DNA from: Sulfurimonas sp.
Lineage (GTDB): Bacteria; Campylobacterota; Campylobacteria; Campylobacterales; Sulfurimonadaceae
Direction of reading: 5' to 3'
Length of the DNA: 64,000 nt
Assembly (NCBI RefSeq): GCF_028714975.1
Contig: NZ_JAQTLH010000001.1
Span: forward strand, 1-64,000
The notes beneath the pieces are model-generated. The model made no database searches. It was not told the origin of the DNA and saw only the letters and a list, made by a program, of their open reading frames with translations. Position 1 is the first letter of the stretch. Each line of letters opens with the position of its first letter. Of the stretch, positions 395 through 13,606 are shown in pieces. Made by a program: the position numbers and the translations under genes.

Positions 395-1438
395 TTAATT
401 GTCACTACTTTCTTGTGTAATAGTAGCTATTAATTTTTCAATAGTCGTATTGCCATTAATTGTTTTAGTCTTAATTGTAAGTGAGACAGCTGTTCTATTG
501 GCTAAATGCGACGATAAAATACTAAAATCAATATCTTCATCATCAGTATCAAACTCAACAATTCCACTAATCTCAGTAGAAGTACTAGCAATTTTAACTT
601 TATACTTGTTATTTTCCTCTAATGCTTCGATATATTTTACAAAAAAACTATCATTGATAATATCTGTCTCTGATGTACTTCTTTTTGTTTTTAATATCTT
701 TTTGGCTTTTTCTTCATCTATAATATATGGTGTTTTAATTGTCTTATTATCATCATCTAAATTATCAGATGGTTGTAGAGTATAACTGTTATTTTGTCTT
801 ACAGGTTTTAATACCGCTTTTTGACCATTTTTAATGGCTTCTTTATATAGAGGTCTTAACTGTATTTCACGGGTTACATCTGAAAATCCTTTGATAATAG
901 CTTGTGTTCTTTCAGTTTCTTGTTGACCTGCTTGTATTGTTTTATTATTCTCATCTTGTTGTTTTAAATAATCAAAATACTCACTACCAATATAACCTGC
1001 CGTTAATGCCATAGCTACAATAGCCACTACGATTACTTTTTCTTTTCCAGTCATATCTTCCACCATCTTTTCAAGTAGTTTTCTAATATTTTTTATTATC
1101 TCTTTTGTACTGCCATCTGCAATTTTTACATAGATTCTAAGAGCAGCCAATTCTTCATCAGACAAAGTATGCGGTATATCTTGATATTTTATTACTTTGT
1201 ATAGATTATTGATGAAATCTTGCAAATCAACTATTGCAGAAGCTAATGTAACATCTATCGTTCCATGTAACCGATCTAAACTGTCTTTATAGTCTAATAC
1301 AAACTCAAAATTTTCTAAAAAATCATCCATAGATATTGACAATACATCATCTGCAACTTCACCATCTTTTACTTTTGAATAATAAAAAAAGATATCATCT
1401 AAAGATTTTATTTCAACTGTATTTGTACTCATTTTCAT
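395..1438 (-). CDS. Single-pass membrane protein, last gene of the Type I R-M operon
   Basis: The product has 347 residues. Residues 1-130 are acidic and helical; one hydrophobic segment follows (VIVVAIVAMALTAGYIG, about residues 135-152); then comes a Q/E/N-rich linker and a C-terminal domain of alternating hydrophobic strands (about 260-347). There is no signal peptide, so the N-terminal part is probably cytoplasmic, but topology is inferred. It starts 3 bp after the hsdS stop and is clearly cotranscribed with hsdMRS. No known Type I subunit resembles it and no family is recognised. It could tether the R-M complex, act as an immunity or effector protein, or be a passenger. Confidence 0.75.
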   Translation of the reverse strand: MKMSTNTVEIKSLDDIFFYYSKVKDGEVADDVLSISMDDFLENFEFVLDYKDSLDRLHGTIDVTLASAIVDLQDFINNLYKVIKYQDIPHTLSDEELAALRIYVKIADGSTKEIIKNIRKLLEKMVEDMTGKEKVIVVAIVAMALTAGYIGSEYFDYLKQQDENNKTIQAGQQETERTQAIIKGFSDVTREIQLRPLYKEAIKNGQKAVLKPVRQNNSYTLQPSDNLDDDNKTIKTPYIIDEEKAKKILKTKRSTSETDIINDSFFVKYIEALEENNKYKVKIASTSTEISGIVEFDTDDEDIDFSILSSHLANRTAVSLTIKTKTINGNTTIEKLIATITQESSDN

Positions 1439-1441
1439 CCT

Positions 1442-2713
1442 TTATTTTATACTCACTTGCCCATTCATAAGCATTGGAAGAAGCCAATCTCTTAGTTTTG
1501 CTAGTTCTTGATTTTGTTGTTCGTTAACATACATTTTTTTCAAAATAGGTTTTATTTTTTTATCAAAAAGCTTAATGATTTCATTACCTGAGTATGCAAA
1601 TTTAAATGTTTTTAAATCAGTATGTCTAACACCTTTATGAATACTACCAGCTGAAACGTTATTTGTGTAAGCCTTCATAAAATCACTCGACAACAGCATA
1701 AACAAAAAGTCTGATGAAACCAAATTATAATCAGGTCTAACCGTAAACACAGATTCATTGATGTTCCAATTTTTTGGTTGCTCTTGGATTAAATATGTAA
1801 CTCCTACAGGTTGAATACTTGTAAATAAAATATCCCCAACTTTTAGATCAGATCGTTTATTGATTATTTTTAGTGCTTCATCATCAACCTTATCGCATTT
1901 GTCATCTAAAATCACTTTCCCTTGTTCAATATTTTTAATAGTTACATAATAATTATTACCAAAACCTAATTTAAAATTATCTCTAGGATTTAATCCTGTG
2001 CCAGTTTTTACAATAACATCATCAAGCTTCTTAACTTCCCACCCCTGTGGAATCTCCCTTTTTAATTCTTGATTACAAACCATCTTCCCACCTGATGATT
2101 TATAAGGTTTCCCATCTTCATCAGGAAAATCAAACTGCACAAACCAATAATCATAAAGAGTTTTTGCCATAGCTTCTAGTTCTTTATTTATCTTACCGTT
2201 TAGTTCTATTTTTACATCAAGGGAAGATAAGATTTTTACTAATAAATTTTGTTGTTCTTGTGATGGTAATAATATAGGACAATCAGCAAAAGTTTGAGCA
2301 TTGATATTGCCCCTTGTACTTCCTACAGACAAATTTGCAACCCAATTTTTATATTGTTTCGATACTGTAAAATACTTTAAATATTTTGGATTAACTTTTT
2401 TTGAATCAAGTCCATATTTAATTAAGAATCCAGCAAATGCCAATGTGCCATTTTTTAACTCATGATAATATGCTCTGCCTGTAGAATTTCCTGTTCTGGC
2501 AAAAACTAGATCACCTTCTTTTAGAATGTATTTATCAATATCTTTAGATGAAACAGATTTTTTATCGTTATCCATTAAATTTCCAAAATCATCAATATCA
2601 CTGATTCTTAAATATCTAGTCTTTTTTATTGAAAAATCTTCCGCAGAAGCAGGTATTCCATATTTGCCTATTTCACCTTCAATACATAGTTCTTTTAAAG
2701 GCTTACTGACCAT
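1442..2713 (-). CDS. hsdS: Type I restriction-modification specificity subunit HsdS
   Basis: This 423-residue protein has the two-repeat layout of HsdS: a first target recognition domain (residues 1-150), a central helical spacer (SSLDVKIELNGKINKELEAM and the YDYWFVQFDFP conserved patch, about 165-200), a second recognition domain beginning near GWEVKKLDDVI (about 225), and a terminal helical region ending in LAKLRDWLLPMLMNGQ. Each recognition domain reads one half of a bipartite DNA site for both methylation and cleavage. It overlaps the end of hsdM by 11 bp, as expected for translational coupling. The sequence recognised cannot be predicted by eye. Confidence 0.93.
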   Translation of the reverse strand: MVSKPLKELCIEGEIGKYGIPASAEDFSIKKTRYLRISDIDDFGNLMDNDKKSVSSKDIDKYILKEGDLVFARTGNSTGRAYYHELKNGTLAFAGFLIKYGLDSKKVNPKYLKYFTVSKQYKNWVANLSVGSTRGNINAQTFADCPILLPSQEQQNLLVKILSSLDVKIELNGKINKELEAMAKTLYDYWFVQFDFPDEDGKPYKSSGGKMVCNQELKREIPQGWEVKKLDDVIVKTGTGLNPRDNFKLGFGNNYYVTIKNIEQGKVILDDKCDKVDDEALKIINKRSDLKVGDILFTSIQPVGVTYLIQEQPKNWNINESVFTVRPDYNLVSSDFLFMLLSSDFMKAYTNNVSAGSIHKGVRHTDLKTFKFAYSGNEIIKLFDKKIKPILKKMYVNEQQNQELAKLRDWLLPMLMNGQVSIK

Positions 2714-4331
2714 AAACCAACCCTACCAACTGCTTCTTTATCTCATCCTCAAGCTCTTTTGATTCACTAAACATAGCTTCTAAATTATCACTAAAACTTT
2801 TCATCTTAGCATCAAACTCATCTTTTGTGATATCTACATACTCTATCTTCACATCAAAATATTGACCTGCACTAAAAGAGTAATTTTTGGTTTTTATATC
2901 ATCGTAGCTAACAACCACAGAGAAATCCTCTACTTGAACTTTGTTATTGAAAGTATCTATGATTTGTTGTTCTTCTTCTGGCTGTAAAACTGTTTTTTGA
3001 TTTTTACCATCTTTTACAGTACGACCAAGATTTGAAGCATCTATCAGCACTACATCTTCTTTGTTTGAAGCATCTATAAATACAATAGATACATTCGTAC
3101 CAGTTGTAGCAAAAATATTACTAGGCATTGATACTACACCACCTAACATTTTCTTTTCAATAAGATATTCTCGTATCGCTTTATCTATTCCACTTTGAGC
3201 TGTGATAAATCCAGTCGGTACAACAACCGCTGCTTTTCCATTTGCTTTGAGCGAGTAGATGATGTGCTGTAAAAATAGGCTATAAATAGACATAGATTCA
3301 AGTTTTTTAGCTGGAATTTTTGGAATGCCTGCAAAGAATCTCTCTTTATTTTCTTTTGTATCCAAATCATCTCTAAAGTCTGTAAAGTCCATCTTAAATG
3401 GTGGATTTGAAACGATATAGTCAAACTTTTTGAGGTTATTATTTTCTTTGTGAAATGGGTGTAACATCGTGTTACCCTGAATAATATTTGAAATTGAGTG
3501 TACAAGGTTATTTAAAATAAGATTGAGTCTTAGTAGATTTGATGATTTTTGAGAAATATCTTGGGAATAGATAGTACATCTATCTTCACCGATAGCATGA
3601 GCTATATTCATAAGGAGTGTTCCTGAACCTGCACTTGGGTCATAGCACGATACATTTTTAACATCACCAGTTACTAAAATCGCAGCCATAATCTTAGCTA
3701 CTGCATGAGGTGTGTAATACTCTGCATACTTTCCACCGCTGTCTTTATTGTAGTCTTTGATTAGGTATTCAAAAATCGTTGCGAAGAAATCGTACTTTTG
3801 GTTAAAAATACTTTCCAAACTAAAATCAGCAACTTTGTTTATGATGGCTTTACAAAAAGAATCTCTCTTTGATTCATCAGAGATAAAGTTACTTAGTCCA
3901 TTTTGTTCAAAGAGTGTGATTTTTGTACCACCATCTGTTTTTACTGCGAATATGTCATTGTTTTGTTTTGCTATCTCTCGCAAAGTATCATCAAACAGTT
4001 TGGCAAAATCTGCTTCATTTTGTCTATTGTAAAGATGGGAAATAAGATGCTCAGGTTTAAGTATCGCTGTATCAGCACCTAACTGTAAACTTAACATCTC
4101 TCTATCATCATCACTTAGAGCCTTAAATGCTTCTTCCCATTTTTGGGCATTTGCTATAGTTTTGTTTGCTTTTTTTAGCTCATGGGCAAATTTATCATTT
4201 AGAAATTTATATAAAAATGCTTGAGTGATAATCTTAAACTCATTTCCATCATTGCCAAGTCCATAACTTGCACATATCCCTTTTAGACTATCTATTAACT
4301 GTTTCGTTTTTATTTCAAATTCTGCTACCAA
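2703..4331 (-). CDS. hsdM: Type I restriction-modification DNA adenine methyltransferase HsdM
   Basis: A 542-residue N6-adenine methyltransferase. The N-terminal helical HsdM domain (1-150) is followed by the catalytic domain with an intact SAM-binding motif I DPSAGSGTLL (231-240), the preceding YAEYYTPHAVA signature and catalytic motif IV NPPF (309-312). Family length and motif order are normal, so the protein should be active. It overlaps hsdR upstream (7 bp) and hsdS downstream (11 bp). It contrasts with the methyltransferase-like gene at 7352-9100, in which these same two motifs are missing. Confidence 0.95.
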   Translation of the reverse strand: MVAEFEIKTKQLIDSLKGICASYGLGNDGNEFKIITQAFLYKFLNDKFAHELKKANKTIANAQKWEEAFKALSDDDREMLSLQLGADTAILKPEHLISHLYNRQNEADFAKLFDDTLREIAKQNNDIFAVKTDGGTKITLFEQNGLSNFISDESKRDSFCKAIINKVADFSLESIFNQKYDFFATIFEYLIKDYNKDSGGKYAEYYTPHAVAKIMAAILVTGDVKNVSCYDPSAGSGTLLMNIAHAIGEDRCTIYSQDISQKSSNLLRLNLILNNLVHSISNIIQGNTMLHPFHKENNNLKKFDYIVSNPPFKMDFTDFRDDLDTKENKERFFAGIPKIPAKKLESMSIYSLFLQHIIYSLKANGKAAVVVPTGFITAQSGIDKAIREYLIEKKMLGGVVSMPSNIFATTGTNVSIVFIDASNKEDVVLIDASNLGRTVKDGKNQKTVLQPEEEQQIIDTFNNKVQVEDFSVVVSYDDIKTKNYSFSAGQYFDVKIEYVDITKDEFDAKMKSFSDNLEAMFSESKELEDEIKKQLVGLVYGQ

Positions 4332-7300: not shown

Positions 7301-7351
7301 TAAGTGCAGTATAGATGGTATTTTTACTCTTGTGTCTTCGTTGAACTTCAT
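4325..7351 (-). CDS. hsdR: Type I restriction endonuclease/translocase subunit HsdR
   Basis: The 1008-residue product has the standard HsdR architecture. An N-terminal PD-(D/E)XK nuclease shows RPDIIL (120-125) and FIEVK (134-138). Two RecA-like helicase domains follow, with Walker A QGSGKT (317-322), a DEVH box (428-431), TGTP (457-460) and QALTRVNR in motif VI. The C-terminal 350 residues are helical and should bind HsdM/HsdS. It cleaves unmodified DNA after ATP-driven translocation. All key residues appear intact. It abuts the preceding methyltransferase-like gene directly (stop at 7352, start at 7351). Confidence 0.95.
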   Translation of the reverse strand: MKFNEDTRVKIPSILHLTRLGYEYISIKDSLWDEETNIFKDIFAKSIKNINKSLELKDDDINRLYGNILLLLENDDLGRAFYDRITEKSGIKIIDFDNFSNNTFNVVTELTYKKDEDEFRPDIILLINGIPLVFIEVKKPNNTDGVRAERKRIETRFQNKAFKKFVNLTQLMVFSNNMEYDNESSEPIQGAFYSTTSYHKPIFNYFREEEHFDLEDMLTPLDEDTENFILKDNNLNVIKNSPEFLTNKDPNTPTNKLSTSLFSKERLAFILKYGIAYVNETKGIEKHIMRYPQIFATKAIASKLDEGIKKGIIWHTQGSGKTALAYYNVKHLTDYFQAKNVIPKFYFIVDRIDLLQQSHREFTSRGLVVHTISSRDDFVKDIKKTTAIHNHSGKAEITVVNIQKFKDDPDVVTSKDYNFEVQRVYFLDEVHRSYNPKGSFLANLNESDPNSIKIGLTGTPLLGEDYNSKALFGGYIHKYYYNASIADGYTLRLIREEIETNYKLQLEQILKDIEILKGDVDKKFIYAHKNFVEPMLEYIVTDFENSRVRFNDNTIGGMVICESSEQAKEMFEIFNSKYANRVTDNKKLATSAALILHDIGTKQERKDFVEDFKDGKIDFLFVYNMLLTGFDAKRLKKLYLGRIIRKHNLLQALTRVNRTYKDFKYGFVVDFADISKEFDATNKAYFDELQSELGDEMETYSKLFKSKEEIEDEITEIKDTLFRFDTLNAENFSQQISQIEDIKQMQGIVKVLDNVKSLYNLIRLFGHYDLLEKIDFAKLTLLYREAQNHLNILNLKNKIEDGADTTNLLNAALEDIIFMFKKIGEEELILADKLKDTLRKTREALASNFDKKDPEFISLKEELERLFKQKKLSEVTQDEMIKNIEALRKIDAKIKELNRQNNLLSSKYNNDPKYARIHKRIIERGNISKRESQIFDALTGVKIDADDKVLSNSDMLNNESYFERLMITNVINRFKNEQKFDINADVTKYINKLVINEYINEFNGVTAW

Positions 7352-9100
7352 TTACTTTGCTCCTAAAAAACTGTCATGGATTGATTGAACATCTGTATAA
7401 ATTTTATTTATTTCATTATACATTTTTATCTCACTGTTGAAGTTTAAAACTGTTTGCTTTTCTTGCTCTTTTGTTAAAATGGGGATACTCAGCTTTTTTA
7501 TCTCTGCTGTTGCAATTTGTGGCATAGCTACACCCGATACCAAAGTCGAAAGTATGGTTTGTCCTAAATTTGATTTTAAAAACATATAGAGAGCTATTGC
7601 TTTTTCTTTTTTATCAGCAGCTTTTAGTCTTATAACCTGTACCGCTTGAGATGCAATGATTGTTTCACTTATTTCACCGACTATTGCTACTTTCCCAATA
7701 GTTCCTTTAGTGCTTAGTAGTACATCATAAGGCTCTAATTTGTAAGTTTGAAGTCTTTTATATTGTGAGCCGATTTGCTTGATTTTCCCGCACTCTAAAA
7801 GAAATCCAGCTTTATTAAAATCTGAAGGAGATACTTCATAAACTTCTTTTCCCTCTCCCTCATCTTTAAATAGTTGTGATCTTCTGATATCTGCTATGTC
7901 TTCTAAATTAATTAATTCAAAACTTTGTAGCTTTTTTTGTACCTCTGCAATCCCTCTGGAAATGATGTATCTATCAATTGCAAAAGAGTAGCTGTTATTG
8001 CTTATCTCATCAGAAGTAACAAACCTTGATATACTTTCTATCTCTTGTTTATTTTCATAAATTGATACAATGTTATCAACATCATTAAGCACAAGCTTTC
8101 TACCCTCTCTTTGTAAAAAGCTTTCATGCTTTAGATTTAAAAAGTAAATATCATTATTCTTTTTGTGTCTATCGATAATGATAAAGGTCGTTTCAATTGA
8201 AGTGGCGTTATGCAGGTTTGGTGGCAGCTGTATAACTGCTTCTAAGAGATTATTTTCAACTAGATATTTTCTAAATTCTTCATCTTGATTGCCTCTGTAG
8301 GTGAAACCAACAGGCATCAAAACAACGGCTTTACCACTAGTTTGAGATAAAATATGCTCAAAATGCGCAACTTCTCTATTTGATTTAACTTTATGGAATT
8401 TAAATCGATTGAATTTATCAGTATGTAAAAAGTCGTTGTTTGTCGATAATCCCATAGGTGGGAATGAAAGGATGCAATTAAACTGTTCTAATAAGTGTGG
8501 GGCGTTGGGGTTAATGTAAGTTGGATTTTCTAGTGGATCTGTAAAAGTAAACTCAATATCAATACCATCTATAATTTTCATTAGCTCTATAACATATTCA
8601 TTTGCAAATGATTCAGCAACTATTTTTTTATCTGTAGAATACGCAATGTTGTAGCCATTACTAAAAGGCGAATATATTGTATCGCAGTTGCCATCTAGCA
8701 ACTTCACTCCGAAATTAGCTATCTGATTAGCAACTGAAAAATCCATATAGCCATCAAGTATAGAATAAAAAATATCAAAAACATTTGGTACAGCCAACTC
8801 TTCGTTAGCTATACCACAAAGTTTGATAAGTTCATTACTTTCAATTTTATCTATTCTGATATTTTGATTTAAAAAAAGCTCAAATAGTTTTATAGATTTT
8901 GATAAATCTTTTACAACTGATTGAAATTTCTTTGTTTCTATCTTTTGATTATAAAAATATTCAAAAGTCAGTTCTTCTTTCTTTATTTGTGGTGATAGTT
9001 TTTTCCATGCGATTAAAAGATAGATAAATTTAGCAAAGTGCTCTACTTTTAAACCACCTTTTAATTCTCTAAGTAATACGGTAAATTGTTTTTCATTCAT
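7352..9100 (-). CDS. Catalytically degenerate N6-methyltransferase fused to a half specificity domain
   Basis: The first gene of the R-M operon, 582 residues. Residues 1-390 follow the HsdM fold: a helical N-terminus, a Rossmann-like region, then VVLMPVGFTYRG, FRKYLVENNLLEAVIQLP and TTFIIID, all typical of HsdM. Where motif I (DPxxGSG) should be, it has IYSPFSNGY (142-150); where NPPF should be, it has LSFPPM (211-216). SAM binding and catalysis are therefore doubtful. Residues 395-582 form one HsdS-type target recognition domain with the conserved SGVAMPQIATAEIKKLSIPI element. It could be a DNA-binding regulator, a decoy subunit or a controller of HsdR. The presence of both domains is clear; loss of activity is inferred from the motifs. 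Confidence 0.85.
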   Translation of the reverse strand: MNEKQFTVLLRELKGGLKVEHFAKFIYLLIAWKKLSPQIKKEELTFEYFYNQKIETKKFQSVVKDLSKSIKLFELFLNQNIRIDKIESNELIKLCGIANEELAVPNVFDIFYSILDGYMDFSVANQIANFGVKLLDGNCDTIYSPFSNGYNIAYSTDKKIVAESFANEYVIELMKIIDGIDIEFTFTDPLENPTYINPNAPHLLEQFNCILSFPPMGLSTNNDFLHTDKFNRFKFHKVKSNREVAHFEHILSQTSGKAVVLMPVGFTYRGNQDEEFRKYLVENNLLEAVIQLPPNLHNATSIETTFIIIDRHKKNNDIYFLNLKHESFLQREGRKLVLNDVDNIVSIYENKQEIESISRFVTSDEISNNSYSFAIDRYIISRGIAEVQKKLQSFELINLEDIADIRRSQLFKDEGEGKEVYEVSPSDFNKAGFLLECGKIKQIGSQYKRLQTYKLEPYDVLLSTKGTIGKVAIVGEISETIIASQAVQVIRLKAADKKEKAIALYMFLKSNLGQTILSTLVSGVAMPQIATAEIKKLSIPILTKEQEKQTVLNFNSEIKMYNEINKIYTDVQSIHDSFLGAK

Positions 9101-9139
9101 AACGTCACTCCAAAATAAAGTAAATAAAAACTAAATACT

Positions 9140-9212
9140 AGTCTTGTATTTACTGATTATATTGAAATGTTATCAGTTTTTTAAAAGTTTGTCAAGTAGT
9201 CTAGTATTTACT
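9140..9212 (-). promoter_or_regulatory. Promoter and paired operators of the hsd operon
   Basis: On the minus strand TTGACA (9195-9190) and TAACAT (9172-9167) are 17 bp apart. Two 15-bp direct repeats, AGTCTTGTATTTACT (9140-9154) and AGTCTAGTATTTACT (9198-9212) on the plus strand, differ at one base, begin 58 bp apart and flank the promoter. The 9140 copy is also part of a 7-bp inverted repeat (TAAATAC 9132-9138 / GTATTTA 9146-9152). The adjacent WYL regulator is the likely ligand. The 9198 copy touches the stop codon of that gene. Confidence 0.65.
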
Positions 9213-10093
9213 TATTTAAGCAAGTATCCCTTTAAAGAATCATTTAACTTCTCTTTTAAATACTGTGGCTTTACAATCTTGATATAGGGTATCCAATATT
9301 TTACAAGCTTTAGTATCTCATCATCGTAAGATATTTTTGTAGAGATGATAAAGTGATTCTCATTTTGTTCTAGTATCTTTTGATTTGCTAATATATCTTT
9401 TCTAGTAAAATACTCTTTTGCCTCATTGTCTATTTGAAGTGTTACTTCGATAAGTTCATTTGAAAACCAGTTGGTGTCGTTTTTTACTATTTGCACTAAA
9501 AACTCTTTTTTAGGAGTAAATATTTTTATGTCATCTTCCCATCTAAACTTTTGAATCTTTGAAAATGTAAATGTTTTTAGTTTGTCATTTTCATCTGCAA
9601 GTAAGTACCAGATAGAATTATTGTTTACAAGTTTGTAAGGGTTTACAGTTCTATTTTTTTCTTTATATTCAAAGTTTACAGGACTATTTTTAACTATAGC
9701 TGCACTTAACATTTCAAACCACTCTTTTTTTAAGCTAATATCTTCAAAGCCTTGATTTTTGATAAGGTAGGCACTATTTAGTTTTGCATTTAAAATATCA
9801 GTTATAAATTCATTTGATAATGATGGATAGAGTGACTTTATCCCGCTTAAAGTGGCAAAATTTTTAATATCTTCAAAGCTTAGTTTTCCTAGAGCATAAC
9901 TTTCCATACTGTAGTAATCACCATTTTTTTGTATAGGTATGTAAGAGAGTCTTTCTTTTATATCTCTTTGTATCGTTCTAATACTTACATTAAACTCATC
10001 AGATAATTCAATAGCAGTGAATCTTTCACCACTATTGAGTTTTGTAAGGATTAAAGAGAGTCTATAAGCTAGAGTGTCGTGTGATTTTGCCAT
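9212..10093 (-). CDS. WYL-domain transcriptional regulator with DeoR-type helix-turn-helix
   Basis: The 293-residue product begins with a winged helix-turn-helix (SDEFNVSIRTIQRDIK, about residues 26-42) and carries a central WYL domain with the SIWYLLADEND core (about 155-165). A C-terminal extension ends in IPYIKIVKPQYLKEKL. WYL proteins sense nucleic-acid or nucleotide ligands and commonly control phage-defence operons (BrxR and CapW are characterised examples). It lies 3 bp after the small membrane gene and immediately before the hsd promoter, so it is placed to link expression of the two modules. The ligand and the sign of regulation are unknown. Confidence 0.88.
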   Translation of the reverse strand: MAKSHDTLAYRLSLILTKLNSGERFTAIELSDEFNVSIRTIQRDIKERLSYIPIQKNGDYYSMESYALGKLSFEDIKNFATLSGIKSLYPSLSNEFITDILNAKLNSAYLIKNQGFEDISLKKEWFEMLSAAIVKNSPVNFEYKEKNRTVNPYKLVNNNSIWYLLADENDKLKTFTFSKIQKFRWEDDIKIFTPKKEFLVQIVKNDTNWFSNELIEVTLQIDNEAKEYFTRKDILANQKILEQNENHFIISTKISYDDEILKLVKYWIPYIKIVKPQYLKEKLNDSLKGYLLK

Positions 10094-10096
10094 TTG

Positions 10097-10291
10097 CTAA
10101 AAATATTTTCTAAGAAAAAGTAGATATTTTGATTGTACTTTACCGTACTCTATAAAAAATGATATAGACACAGCAATACCAAAAGCCAACACAAAATCTA
10201 AAAACTTGATAGTTGTAAATAGATTTGTGATGACTGCTAAAGATATAAACATTACAGTTAGTATAAATAGTACTTTGAAATATGTTAGCAT
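10097..10291 (-). CDS. Small two-helix membrane protein
   Basis: A 64-residue peptide made almost entirely of two hydrophobic helices (about residues 5-27 and 30-47), followed by a basic tail (KVQSKYLLFLRKYF). It sits 2 bp after the 527-residue membrane-associated gene and 3 bp before the WYL gene, which argues for a real translated gene in this operon. Small proteins of this type often serve as membrane effectors or anchors, but no family is recognised. Confidence 0.65.
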   Translation of the reverse strand: MLTYFKVLFILTVMFISLAVITNLFTTIKFLDFVLAFGIAVSISFFIEYGKVQSKYLLFLRKYF

Positions 10292-10293
10292 TA

Positions 10294-11877
10294 TTATTTT
10301 CCCTTTTTTATTTCTGCTTTTAACATTCTTTTTAAATCATTGGTAAGATATTCATCCATTGCCTCATCATCAATCTGTCCACTATTGTACCAAGCATAGA
10401 CTTCTTTTAATGATAAGTGACCAAACCTCACCCACGCAATTAAATTTGTTCTCAATAAAAATTTAACCATATCTCCGCCTGAACGAATAGCCGCATCTGC
10501 TCCATCCATAATACATAATGTTCCATGTCCTACTAGCAACATTCTTCTTACTTCTGGAATATTTTCCTTTGGAATGCAATCTTCCCATTTTTTTTGATGA
10601 TAAAATTTACCTTTCATTGTATACATAAATCTTATAAGTAATTCATTTATTAAAACTGGGATAGCCATAGCTACCCCATGCCTTGCTTCGTAACCTTCTT
10701 CAAAAACTTGTGTTGCAATTTTTGCAAATTTTTGTTTATCTTTACCAAACTCTCCAAAATCTAGTAGTAGAAATAGTTCAAAAAAAGGTATAGGTACGCC
10801 TTTCCCTCTATTTCCTAATTTTATTGAACTATTTGAACCTGATAAGTCTGACATTATATGTCCAAACCAATTTGCAAAACCACAAAATATTTTAGCAATA
10901 AAATTATGTCCTTGTAAATTTATTTCAGATTCATGAGTTTCAAATGTAATTACTTTCCCATCACTTACAAAAGTTGAAGTATTTGTAAATTGATTTAAAA
11001 TTGATACTATTAAACCTATAATATCGGTTGCATGCCCTAAGTTTTTCAAATGATGATTTGAAGGATATAAATTATTAATTTTCCCATTTGTTCCAGCTTT
11101 GCCTTTTTTGTTAGTATGGGTTTGATCATAATTTACTTTAAATTTATTTTCTAAACATTGAATTACTTTTTGTCTTGTACTAATATCTTTATTTTTTTCA
11201 CATACAAAAGTTGCAAATTTTTCTACAATTTTAAAAGCAAACTCATCAACTTTATCATTAAGTTTACCTTGTTTATGGACTTTTTTAGTTTTTATTTCAC
11301 CCTTTTTTTTCCCATTTTCGTAATACTTTAAATTACCTTTATCATCAAGCTTTGGTACAGTTTCTGCATCTACATAGACAAATAAAATATCAATTAATCC
11401 TGCTATAACACCACATGTTCCTGCTATCATATAGTCGTATTTGTCACATTGAGCATTTTTAAAAGTAAACTCATCTTCTATTCGATTTTGAAATTCTATT
11501 TTCTCTGATTCTGTCATCAAGTCTTTAAAAGGGTCATCTTTTAAATCAAGATTATTTCTAAAACCATAATCCTTAACTAAATCAGAATACTCCTTCCAAG
11601 TCATATTATTATGAGCTTCAATCTTATCAAGTTCATCAACCACTTTACATGTACTTAAAGTATGCTTTTTTTCATTTGATAATTGAATATCTCCGCCTTG
11701 TAGCAATGTATGCATATTGTTGAACATTTCATCCAAAGTTTCATTGTTGATCTCTTGTTCTTGTTTTATGTCCCTTAAAGACTGGTCTATCTCAGTAAGC
11801 TTATAAGTAGAACTATTTATTTGGTGTTTTTGTACTTTAAGTGCAGTTGCTTCATCTTTTAAATATTGCTCATCCAT
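10294..11877 (-). CDS. Membrane-associated protein of the TerB-type defence-like module
   Basis: 527 residues. An N-terminal helical region with predicted coiled coil (1-60) precedes a hydrophobic segment (YMIAGTCGVIAGLIDILFV, about 148-166). Further weakly hydrophobic helices follow around HATDIIGLIVSILNQF and AIPVLINELLIRFMY. A conserved-looking C-terminal patch contains LLVGHGTLCIMDGADAA and LRTNLIAWVRFGHLSLKEV. Its start overlaps the end of the 578-residue gene by 8 bp, so the two are coupled. I recall similar proteins beside TerB-domain genes in other bacteria, and the pair may correspond to a system such as Bunzi; this is a memory-based suggestion needing an HMM search. Confidence 0.75.
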   Translation of the reverse strand: MDEQYLKDEATALKVQKHQINSSTYKLTEIDQSLRDIKQEQEINNETLDEMFNNMHTLLQGGDIQLSNEKKHTLSTCKVVDELDKIEAHNNMTWKEYSDLVKDYGFRNNLDLKDDPFKDLMTESEKIEFQNRIEDEFTFKNAQCDKYDYMIAGTCGVIAGLIDILFVYVDAETVPKLDDKGNLKYYENGKKKGEIKTKKVHKQGKLNDKVDEFAFKIVEKFATFVCEKNKDISTRQKVIQCLENKFKVNYDQTHTNKKGKAGTNGKINNLYPSNHHLKNLGHATDIIGLIVSILNQFTNTSTFVSDGKVITFETHESEINLQGHNFIAKIFCGFANWFGHIMSDLSGSNSSIKLGNRGKGVPIPFFELFLLLDFGEFGKDKQKFAKIATQVFEEGYEARHGVAMAIPVLINELLIRFMYTMKGKFYHQKKWEDCIPKENIPEVRRMLLVGHGTLCIMDGADAAIRSGGDMVKFLLRTNLIAWVRFGHLSLKEVYAWYNSGQIDDEAMDEYLTNDLKRMLKAEIKKGK

Positions 11878-13606
11878 TGGGTAAACCTTTAATATTATTT
11901 AGCCCATTCAATGCAGCACCTCTTAAGACATTATCTGTTTCAAAATAGCCTAGATTTTCTAATATTCTTGATATTTCATCTAAAGTATCAGTATCAACAT
12001 ATTCATTTAAAAGCAAAGTCTCTTTATTGTAATTTTCAATTACTAATCTATATAAGTGTTCTTTAGCAACATCTGTAGTTAAAATTTTTAATCTTGATTC
12101 ATCTAAAATTTTAGGAACTTTTATTCTACTCATTGAGTTTTGAGATTGTTTTTGTTTATTATCTATGCATTTTAAGGTACTTGCCATTAAAAGTGTAAGT
12201 TCATTTATTTTTGAATTTTGTTTTTTTTGCTCTACTGTAGTGTCATTGAGTGCTCTTATTACATAATTTATGTCATCTATCAACATTGAAATTGTTTTTT
12301 GTGTTAATTTAATAACTTCATGTAACATAAATTCTCTTGTCTTATATTTGTCTAGCTTATCTACACCGCTTAAATGCTTGATGCCCTTGTATGTTACTGT
12401 TCCAATTAATATGGCAGTTGCTATTCCCGCAGTCATAGGATTTAAAAAACCTAATCCTCTCATACCCAAAAAAGCAAGTCCTGAAGATATACCTGAAGCT
12501 GATAGTCCAACTACACTTCCTGATAAATAAACTGCACCTAACGGCACTCCAATACTAGAAGCTGTCGCACCAAATTCAGTAAATATCTTCTTGATTGAAT
12601 TATCATCAAGATCTTTATGTATAATTTTGTAATCATTTGCAATTGCCAGATAAGCCAAGAATATATCTTCATCTGAAACATTAAATAATTTTCTATTTGT
12701 TTCTAAAAAATTAAAATTTATCGATGACATGACTTTTTTAGCTTGTTCTATATCAATTTCTTTATTATTTTTTACAGCTGAATCTATATCTTTTATTATG
12801 TGCTCTATACTTTCGTCTTTTTTTGTACTAAAATAAATATTTATCATATCTTTTAAAAGTGATATCATTATTGATTTATAATGTAGTAGATTAGAAGTGT
12901 TAATAACTTTATTGAGTAAATCTTCATTAGGTATGATATTCTCATTTGAAATATTGGCAATATATAATCTGATTTCAAATCTTGAATCTTGAGTTAACTC
13001 TAATCTGGTTATTAGTAAAAGTAACTCTGCTAATTCTTTTTCATCGATTTTATTATCGTCATCAAATGTCATATTGACAATAATTTTTAAATAAGCAATT
13101 TTAAATTCTTCAGGCATTTTATCAAAAGATTTTAGTTTATTTTCTTCTTCTTTATATGTATCAAATTCAGAAATGATTTTATCTATAAACTCTGCAAGTA
13201 AATTATAATTAAAGTTTTTAGAAGGCAACATACCGCATAGATTATCTATAATATAATCTTCACTATTCATGTTTATTTTTATATATTCATAAATATTTTG
13301 TTTACCTAAAATACCTTTTTTTATTTCAGATAAATATTCAACAGATTTAATATTTTTATAGTTAAATACTACAATTTCTTTACCATTATTATAAAGTATT
13401 TTTTCACCAGTAAAAAGTAAACCTTCTTTACCTGTGCCTAATTTTGTAGTATCGTATAAAGCAATCACATATTTATGTAAATTTTCATCACAGTCAAAAG
13501 CTTTTATTGCATTGGTTAATTTTTTATCAGAAATTTCTAATAATATAAGAATGTCATCATTTACCGCTTTTATATTATCTTTTATAAATAAATTCACATT
13601 TTTCAT
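11870..13606 (-). CDS. TerB/PH-like protein with a glycine-rich hydrophobic segment
   Basis: 578 residues. Residues 45-115 look like a bacterial PH-type beta domain (GLLFTGEKILYNNGKEIVVF). Residues 165-260 resemble TerB, with the acidic pattern DDDNKIDEKELAELLLLITR (182-201). Residues 345-405 are a long glycine/alanine-rich hydrophobic stretch (LGAVYLSGSVVGLSASGISS) that could insert in a membrane. The tail is helical. TerB domains occur in several anti-phage systems. It is the first gene of the minus-strand operon that continues into the 527-residue gene and the WYL regulator. Domain names are by pattern only. Confidence 0.75.
   Translation of the reverse strand: MKNVNLFIKDNIKAVNDDILILLEISDKKLTNAIKAFDCDENLHKYVIALYDTTKLGTGKEGLLFTGEKILYNNGKEIVVFNYKNIKSVEYLSEIKKGILGKQNIYEYIKINMNSEDYIIDNLCGMLPSKNFNYNLLAEFIDKIISEFDTYKEEENKLKSFDKMPEEFKIAYLKIIVNMTFDDDNKIDEKELAELLLLITRLELTQDSRFEIRLYIANISNENIIPNEDLLNKVINTSNLLHYKSIMISLLKDMINIYFSTKKDESIEHIIKDIDSAVKNNKEIDIEQAKKVMSSINFNFLETNRKLFNVSDEDIFLAYLAIANDYKIIHKDLDDNSIKKIFTEFGATASSIGVPLGAVYLSGSVVGLSASGISSGLAFLGMRGLGFLNPMTAGIATAILIGTVTYKGIKHLSGVDKLDKYKTREFMLHEVIKLTQKTISMLIDDINYVIRALNDTTVEQKKQNSKINELTLLMASTLKCIDNKQKQSQNSMSRIKVPKILDESRLKILTTDVAKEHLYRLVIENYNKETLLLNEYVDTDTLDEISRILENLGYFETDNVLRGAALNGLNNIKGLPNG

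Follow-up and report, generated by a model that had tools for sequence, protein, structure and literature searches.

The question raised by this locus is why a Type I restriction-modification (R-M) operon should open with a methyltransferase-like gene whose catalytic motifs are missing. The locus lies in Sulfurimonas sp. (RefSeq assembly GCF_028714975.1, contig NZ_JAQTLH010000001.1, positions 1 to 64,000 of the forward strand), and the whole of this 64,000-nucleotide stretch is referred to below as the window. A first-pass annotation had described the first gene, here called M/S, as an HsdM fold with one target recognition domain (TRD) heading a Type I R-M operon, and the open reading frame at 7352..9100(-), Pfam and Foldseek all agree with this description. 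The gene order is M/S, hsdR, hsdM, hsdS and then a 347-aa ORF, for which no convincing family match was obtained in Pfam, NCBIfam or PADLOC. The operon is tight, as M/S stops at 7352 and hsdR starts at 7351, and hsdR/hsdM as well as hsdM/hsdS overlap. The operon and the parts of M/S are as follows:

7352..9100, minus strand: M/S gene, first of the operon; 582 aa, a predicted dead HsdM-like domain plus one TRD
8654..8674, minus strand: motif I position, residues 143-149, YSPFSNG versus DPxxGSG, aligned with 25 homologues
8453..8467, minus strand: motif IV position, residues 212-216, SFPPM versus NPPF, aligned with 25 homologues
7457..7954, minus strand: TRD, residues 383-548, the best-conserved region of the family in Campylobacterota
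7355..7456, minus strand: C-terminal helix, residues 549-582 (helix 544-579 in the AlphaFold model), presumed dimerisation helix
4325..7351, minus strand: hsdR, 1008 aa
2703..4331, minus strand: hsdM, 542 aa, motifs DPSAGSG and NPPF intact
1442..2713, minus strand: hsdS, 423 aa, two Methylase_S matches
395..1438, minus strand: ORF of 347 aa, function not assigned, last in the apparent operon

In the 582-aa M/S protein, Pfam places N6_Mtase at residues 179-381 (E 1.3e-32). The match covers profile positions 104-305 of 311, and because it starts at position 104 the motif I part is left unmatched. A single Methylase_S stretch (residues 394-547, E 3.6e-12) corresponds to one TRD, so that M/S does not have the two TRDs per chain of an HsdS, and neither Pfam nor NCBIfam gave a match to a helix-turn-helix (HTH) family. 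The NCBIfam hsdM score is 87.7 bits, below the cut-off of 242.75, and M/S likewise falls short of the NCBIfam cut-off for MAD5 of the MADS defence system, with 55.1 bits versus 400. Read from the sequence, motif I is IYSPFSNGYNIA (residues 142-153) and motif IV is LSFPPM (residues 211-216). The HsdM signatures DPxxGxG and NPP[FYW] are thus replaced by YSPFSNG and SFPPM; the first-pass annotation had rightly noted the loss of both, and the intactness of the true hsdM in the same operon. A structure prediction, which it had proposed as a check, gave a confident AlphaFold model (pLDDT 88.3). In Foldseek this model resembles the Type I M subunits of PacII (M1/M2), S. thermophilus (3lkd), StySJI and EcoR124I, with a best E of 5.9e-21 to PacII M, and it also matches related adenine methyltransferases. 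Because of these matches we regard the HsdM fold of M/S as intact; to judge from the model, the fold is kept and the chemistry alone is gone.

Homologues were collected from whole genomes of the phylum, from GTDB contigs (searched with a profile from a 6-row alignment) and from plasmids. After de-duplication, 17 Campylobacterota loci and 9 distant homologues remained (Aliivibrio, Aromatoleum, one Geobacteraceae genome, five cyanobacterial plasmids and one Lactobacillus plasmid), 26 in all. A standard motif IV ([NDS]PP[FYW]) is found in 0/26; most read [SA]FPP, and that of L034 is readable as SPPG after a one-residue shift. The motif I aspartate is absent from 25 of the 26 and kept in the Lactobacillus protein only. 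The loss, whose conservation the first-pass annotation had wanted checked against homologues, is therefore shared, and none of the 26 has intact motifs that differ from the window copy by recent mutations only. A tree built on the methyltransferase part joins the 25 proteins without the aspartate in one group (support 99/98) that is separate from all HsdM and from the M/S fusions of Helicobacteraceae; the Synechococcus row (L040), with its long branch, is placed with less certainty. Between the window M/S and its closest relative (L041), dN is 0.13, dS is ~1.2 and dN/dS is 0.11, and four further pairs give dN/dS values of 0.10-0.15. At such a ratio and such a dS the gene is not decaying, and a recent pseudogene is ruled out by dN/dS ~0.11 together with a loss common to the family. 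As far as these alignments can tell, M/S is a maintained, catalytically dead family, and the catalytic loss is ancient, not recent. Viral contigs held no M/S relatives, and phage records gave partial matches only, to the methyltransferase part. In the Helicobacteraceae loci (L012, L013, L014, L018, L020) the M/S fusions are a family of their own, in which motif I reads NPC.G.G and motif IV reads NPPF, NPPL or HPPL, mostly of NPP type. On two of the cyanobacterial plasmids (L034, L038), an ORF for an N-terminal part, which has an ATG of its own, lies upstream of the annotated M/S start and ends just past a T9 run; a frame shift there would join it to M/S, and conserved slippage at this run is a possibility.

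A potential role for such a protein is suggested by its promoter, which lies between M/S and a regulator gene:

9212..10093, minus strand: WYL-domain HTH regulator, immediately upstream of the M/S promoter
9197..9213, minus strand: putative operator site 1, AAGTAAATACTAGACTA, immediately ahead of the -35 box and sharing 2 bp with the stop codon of the WYL gene
9190..9195, minus strand: -35 box TTGACA, a consensus match, identically placed in 15/17 loci
9168..9173, minus strand: candidate -10 box TAACAT, spacer 16, by consensus match only
9139..9155, minus strand: putative operator site 2, CAGTAAATACAAGACTA, 58 bp after the start of site 1

Farther upstream, the window contains the Bunzi genes BnzB (10294-11877(-)) and BnzA (11870-13606(-)), with PADLOC E-values of 1.7e-175 and 1.3e-134 respectively, and a 64-aa ORF (10097-10291(-)) sits between BnzB and the WYL regulator.

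The window promoter therefore reads AAGTAAATACTAGACTA-c-TTGACA-16-TAACAT, followed by CAGTAAATACAAGACTA. We compared the 200 bp before M/S, or before a preceding DUF4258-like gene, in the 17 Campylobacterota loci. With at most one mismatch, the dyad TAGT-N9-ACTA occurs upstream in 17/17 loci (shuffles: mean 3.9, largest 9); it is exact in 12/17 (shuffle mean 0.2) and present in two copies in 13/17 (shuffle mean 0.4). It outnumbers every other 4+4 dyad with a gap of 3-15, being found in 12 loci versus 7 for the best shuffle dyad, and its inner positions show some preference too. In 15/17 loci, TTGAC[AT] comes immediately after site 1; site 2 follows the -10 box, mostly 58-60 bp from site 1 (range 48-62 bp). 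L042 and L048 are without a clear site 2, and L066 and L075 without the arrangement of site 1 and -35 box. The 3.7 kb of M/S promoters contain 13 paired sites, as against 1 in the remaining ~286 kb of these loci and none in 88 kb surrounding plain hsdM genes. A held-out profile was built on 25 sites from 14 loci, leaving aside the window, L041 and L053 because these three have promoter sequence in common; this profile ranks 9197-9213 first and 9139-9155 second of ~64,000 window positions. Single sites with one mismatch are no commoner in the window than by chance (36 vs 35.1 in shuffles). A pattern count over the whole genome (G000) gave 32 exact TAGT-N9-ACTA versus 89 for the reversed control pattern, a difference that may stem from avoidance or from composition. 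It is the paired arrangement and its conservation that carry the evidential weight; the dyad is repeated at the gene's own promoter, as would be expected of a controller. TAGT-N9-ACTA was not found at the nine distant homologues. Aromatoleum has a repeated palindrome of its own, GTACGSCGTACC, twice around its -35 box, and the other distant homologues have weak or no palindrome candidates.

The TRD is conserved in a corresponding manner. Among the 17 proteins, mean pairwise identity is highest for the TRD (54.9%), followed by the methyltransferase part (47.6%) and the N-terminal part (28.6%); identity among the HsdS proteins encoded in these operons is 22-47%. In this respect the M/S TRD looks like one that is held to a constant target. 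In the group with TAGT sites, a small number of TRD and C-terminal residues, Q409 and Y453 among them, are near-invariant; they mostly differ in the distant homologues, which lack TAGT-N9-ACTA. A TRD copied from the HsdS of its own operon is not supported, as the similarity is weak and partial (23-35%), with best E-values of ~6e-9 (L053) and 2e-7 (L043) and weaker ones elsewhere. Single TRDs that pair on a symmetric bipartite site are known: the S protein EcoR124INT dimerises and recognises GAAN7TTC (PMC3320862), and single TRDs of NgoAV pair likewise (PMC3874165).

We consider it probable that M/S works as a catalytically dead dimer, which recognises an operator at its own promoter and so autoregulates the restriction operon. 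It would descend from a Type I-like methyltransferase whose SAM and catalytic motifs disappeared in the ancestor of a deep family while the TRD was retained. Two chains would pair via the C-terminal helix, a role that is assigned by analogy with Type I S subunits, and each TRD would read one TAGT half-site. The dimer would sit on both sites flanking the promoter, leave the DNA unmodified and control its own promoter, and would in this way govern how strongly the co-transcribed hsdR, hsdM and hsdS are expressed. Since one site abuts the -35 box and the other follows the -10 box, repression is likelier than activation. The first-pass annotation had proposed binding to a specific DNA site without modification, for operon regulation, site protection or steering of HsdR. 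A DNA site does travel with M/S, and binding by M/S itself is what we infer from this; among the proposed roles operon regulation is now strongly favoured, and steering and protection are disfavoured because nearly the same M/S heads unrelated Type I systems. Several points count against this reading. The main misfit is the gap, as characterised Type I sites have N5-N8 (PMC3874165), shorter than the N9 found here, and a 17-bp dyad could equally suit an HTH protein. Four M/S genes (L042, L051, L052, L066) have no adjoining restriction genes. The preference at inner positions of the dyad, the loci that depart from the paired layout (L042, L048, L066, L075) and the chance-level number of single one-mismatch sites in the window weigh against it as well. 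In addition, the loci were chosen by M/S, so that an unlinked common factor may be compatible with the co-occurrence alone.

Which protein owns the sites can be approached through the neighbouring genes. L041, whose M/S is 77% identical to that of the window, has a near-identical promoter in different surroundings without a WYL gene, and its HsdM and HsdS are only 25% and 23% identical to those of the window. Conversely, the HsdM of L043 is 89% identical to that of the window and its M/S 51%. Judged by these comparisons, the sites go with M/S and not with the restriction genes. Behind M/S, the order is R-M-S in the window, L043 and L044; a 782-784-aa M plus S in L041, L053 and L064; M-S and then R in L045 and L048; and M in L065. 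In L075, hsdR lies upstream, and contig ends truncate L047, L049 and L050. The distant Aliivibrio M/S is followed by hsdM and hsdS as well. In L052, one of the loci without restriction genes, a GNAT acetyltransferase gene (2968-3489) lies directly behind M/S and is possibly other cargo under its promoter. M/S is the one gene common to the site-bearing loci, which were chosen by it. It is unlikely that the paired sites serve a different regulator, be it the WYL protein, an unlinked host factor or the DUF4258-like protein, and that M/S has another role, but this has to be considered in view of this sampling and of BrxR, a WYL regulator of a defence system that binds repeats upstream of its own gene (PMC12707154). 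A WYL gene adjoins M/S in the window and, 74% identical, in L049 (705-1592), and a DUF4258-like gene precedes M/S in 6/17 loci. However, these are the only two of the 17 site-bearing loci with a WYL gene upstream, and the DUF4258-like gene is absent from 10/17, the window included. The near-identical promoter of L041 rules out WYL as the common owner, as does absence from most loci for the DUF4258-like protein. Moreover, in several families the unit of promoter plus M/S stands beside unrelated restriction genes, which makes the co-travelling factor the simplest owner. L049 has a decayed DUF4258-like reading frame between the operator pair and M/S, suggesting that the small gene can be lost.

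The same comparisons bear on the remaining explanations. A two-gene module in which M/S would be the antitoxin-like, DNA-binding partner of a putative toxin, the DUF4258-like protein (distantly of RelE/BrnT type), with the restriction genes as cargo, is very unlikely. Six of the Campylobacterota loci do have the small gene directly before M/S, as do Aromatoleum, Synechococcus and Geobacteraceae, 7/7 aligned small proteins match Pfam DUF4258, mostly below the cut-off, and this family is listed among RelE/ParE-type toxin families, although its activity is not known (PMC11980606). Yet the toxin-like gene does not adjoin M/S in the window and most relatives, where M/S and operator persist, and the structure predicted for the small protein is of low quality (pLDDT 58). 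We also regard it as highly improbable that M/S is an accessory restriction subunit that targets HsdR to sites, or shields them, without methylating. Co-transcription with hsdR in the window and the kept HsdM-like fold would fit, but the same type of M/S precedes unrelated HsdM and HsdS, similar HsdM proteins stand behind diverged M/S (89% and 51% for window and L043, as above), some M/S have no restriction genes alongside, and an accessory subunit gives no reason for paired promoter sites. Least of all do we expect a decaying pseudo-subunit or an active methyltransferase with unusual motifs. The aspartate retained in Lactobacillus and the NPP-type motif IV in Helicobacteraceae indicate that active fusions may exist elsewhere; against this, the loss is common to the whole family, the gene is under strong purifying selection, and motif IV makes up the catalytic site in gamma-class methyltransferases (PMC3874165).

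If M/S is a self-regulating dead dimer, it would be related in its working to several autogenous controllers of R-M systems. Like the Type II C proteins and the Type I HsdC of Mollicutes (PMC5282649, PMC12707154), it is encoded at the operon head with repeated sites at its own promoter, and the autogenous control of restriction genes exerted by these proteins is what we propose for M/S. C proteins and HsdC are small HTH proteins, however, whereas M/S has 582 aa, a methyltransferase fold and a TRD, and no HTH match. M.EcoRII, M.Ecl18kI and M.SsoII (PMC12707154) are methyltransferase polypeptides that control their own R-M operon, as M/S may do. These dual-function repressors keep catalysis and bind the operator with a fused HTH, in contrast to M/S, which is predicted to be dead and in which the TRD is the sole DNA-reading domain found. 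RptR (PMC12255303) likewise heads a Type I operon, has several palindromic sites at its own promoter and occurs beside many Type I systems, but it is a small alpha-helical repressor with a 6-bp palindrome, to which M/S is unrelated in sequence and size. By analogy with the 'Type 1 1/2' enzyme M.AhdI and the half-S Type I enzymes NgoAV and EcoR124INT, the single TRDs of M/S might pair on symmetric bipartite sites; those enzymes are active with M and S on separate chains, and M/S is one, apparently dead, chain. With no HTH match, no active site and one TRD, M/S seems to belong to none of the classes compared, despite its likeness to autogenous R-M controllers in its proposed working. NCBI's 'type I restriction-modification system subunit M/S' proteins, WP_013450026 and WP_015211643 among them, are homologues of the window M/S. 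This name implies an active subunit, which the motifs contradict, and among the open-access papers searched we found no functional study of these homologues.

Our open-access literature search also found no report of an inactive M-S regulator, and we lean towards regarding M/S as a new class of transcription factor. It would be a dead methyltransferase-TRD dimer whose operator is read by TRDs and not by an HTH, which autoregulates diverse Type I operons, has been exchanged among them as a cassette of promoter plus regulator and has relatives in at least four phyla. If this is true, the control of restriction genes would have found a recurrent answer built from the systems' own parts, here a methyltransferase turned into a TRD-reading transcription factor. 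A family of pseudo-methyltransferases now has a predicted DNA site, and genes annotated as 'subunit M/S' or 'N-6 DNA methylase' do not necessarily encode methyltransferases.
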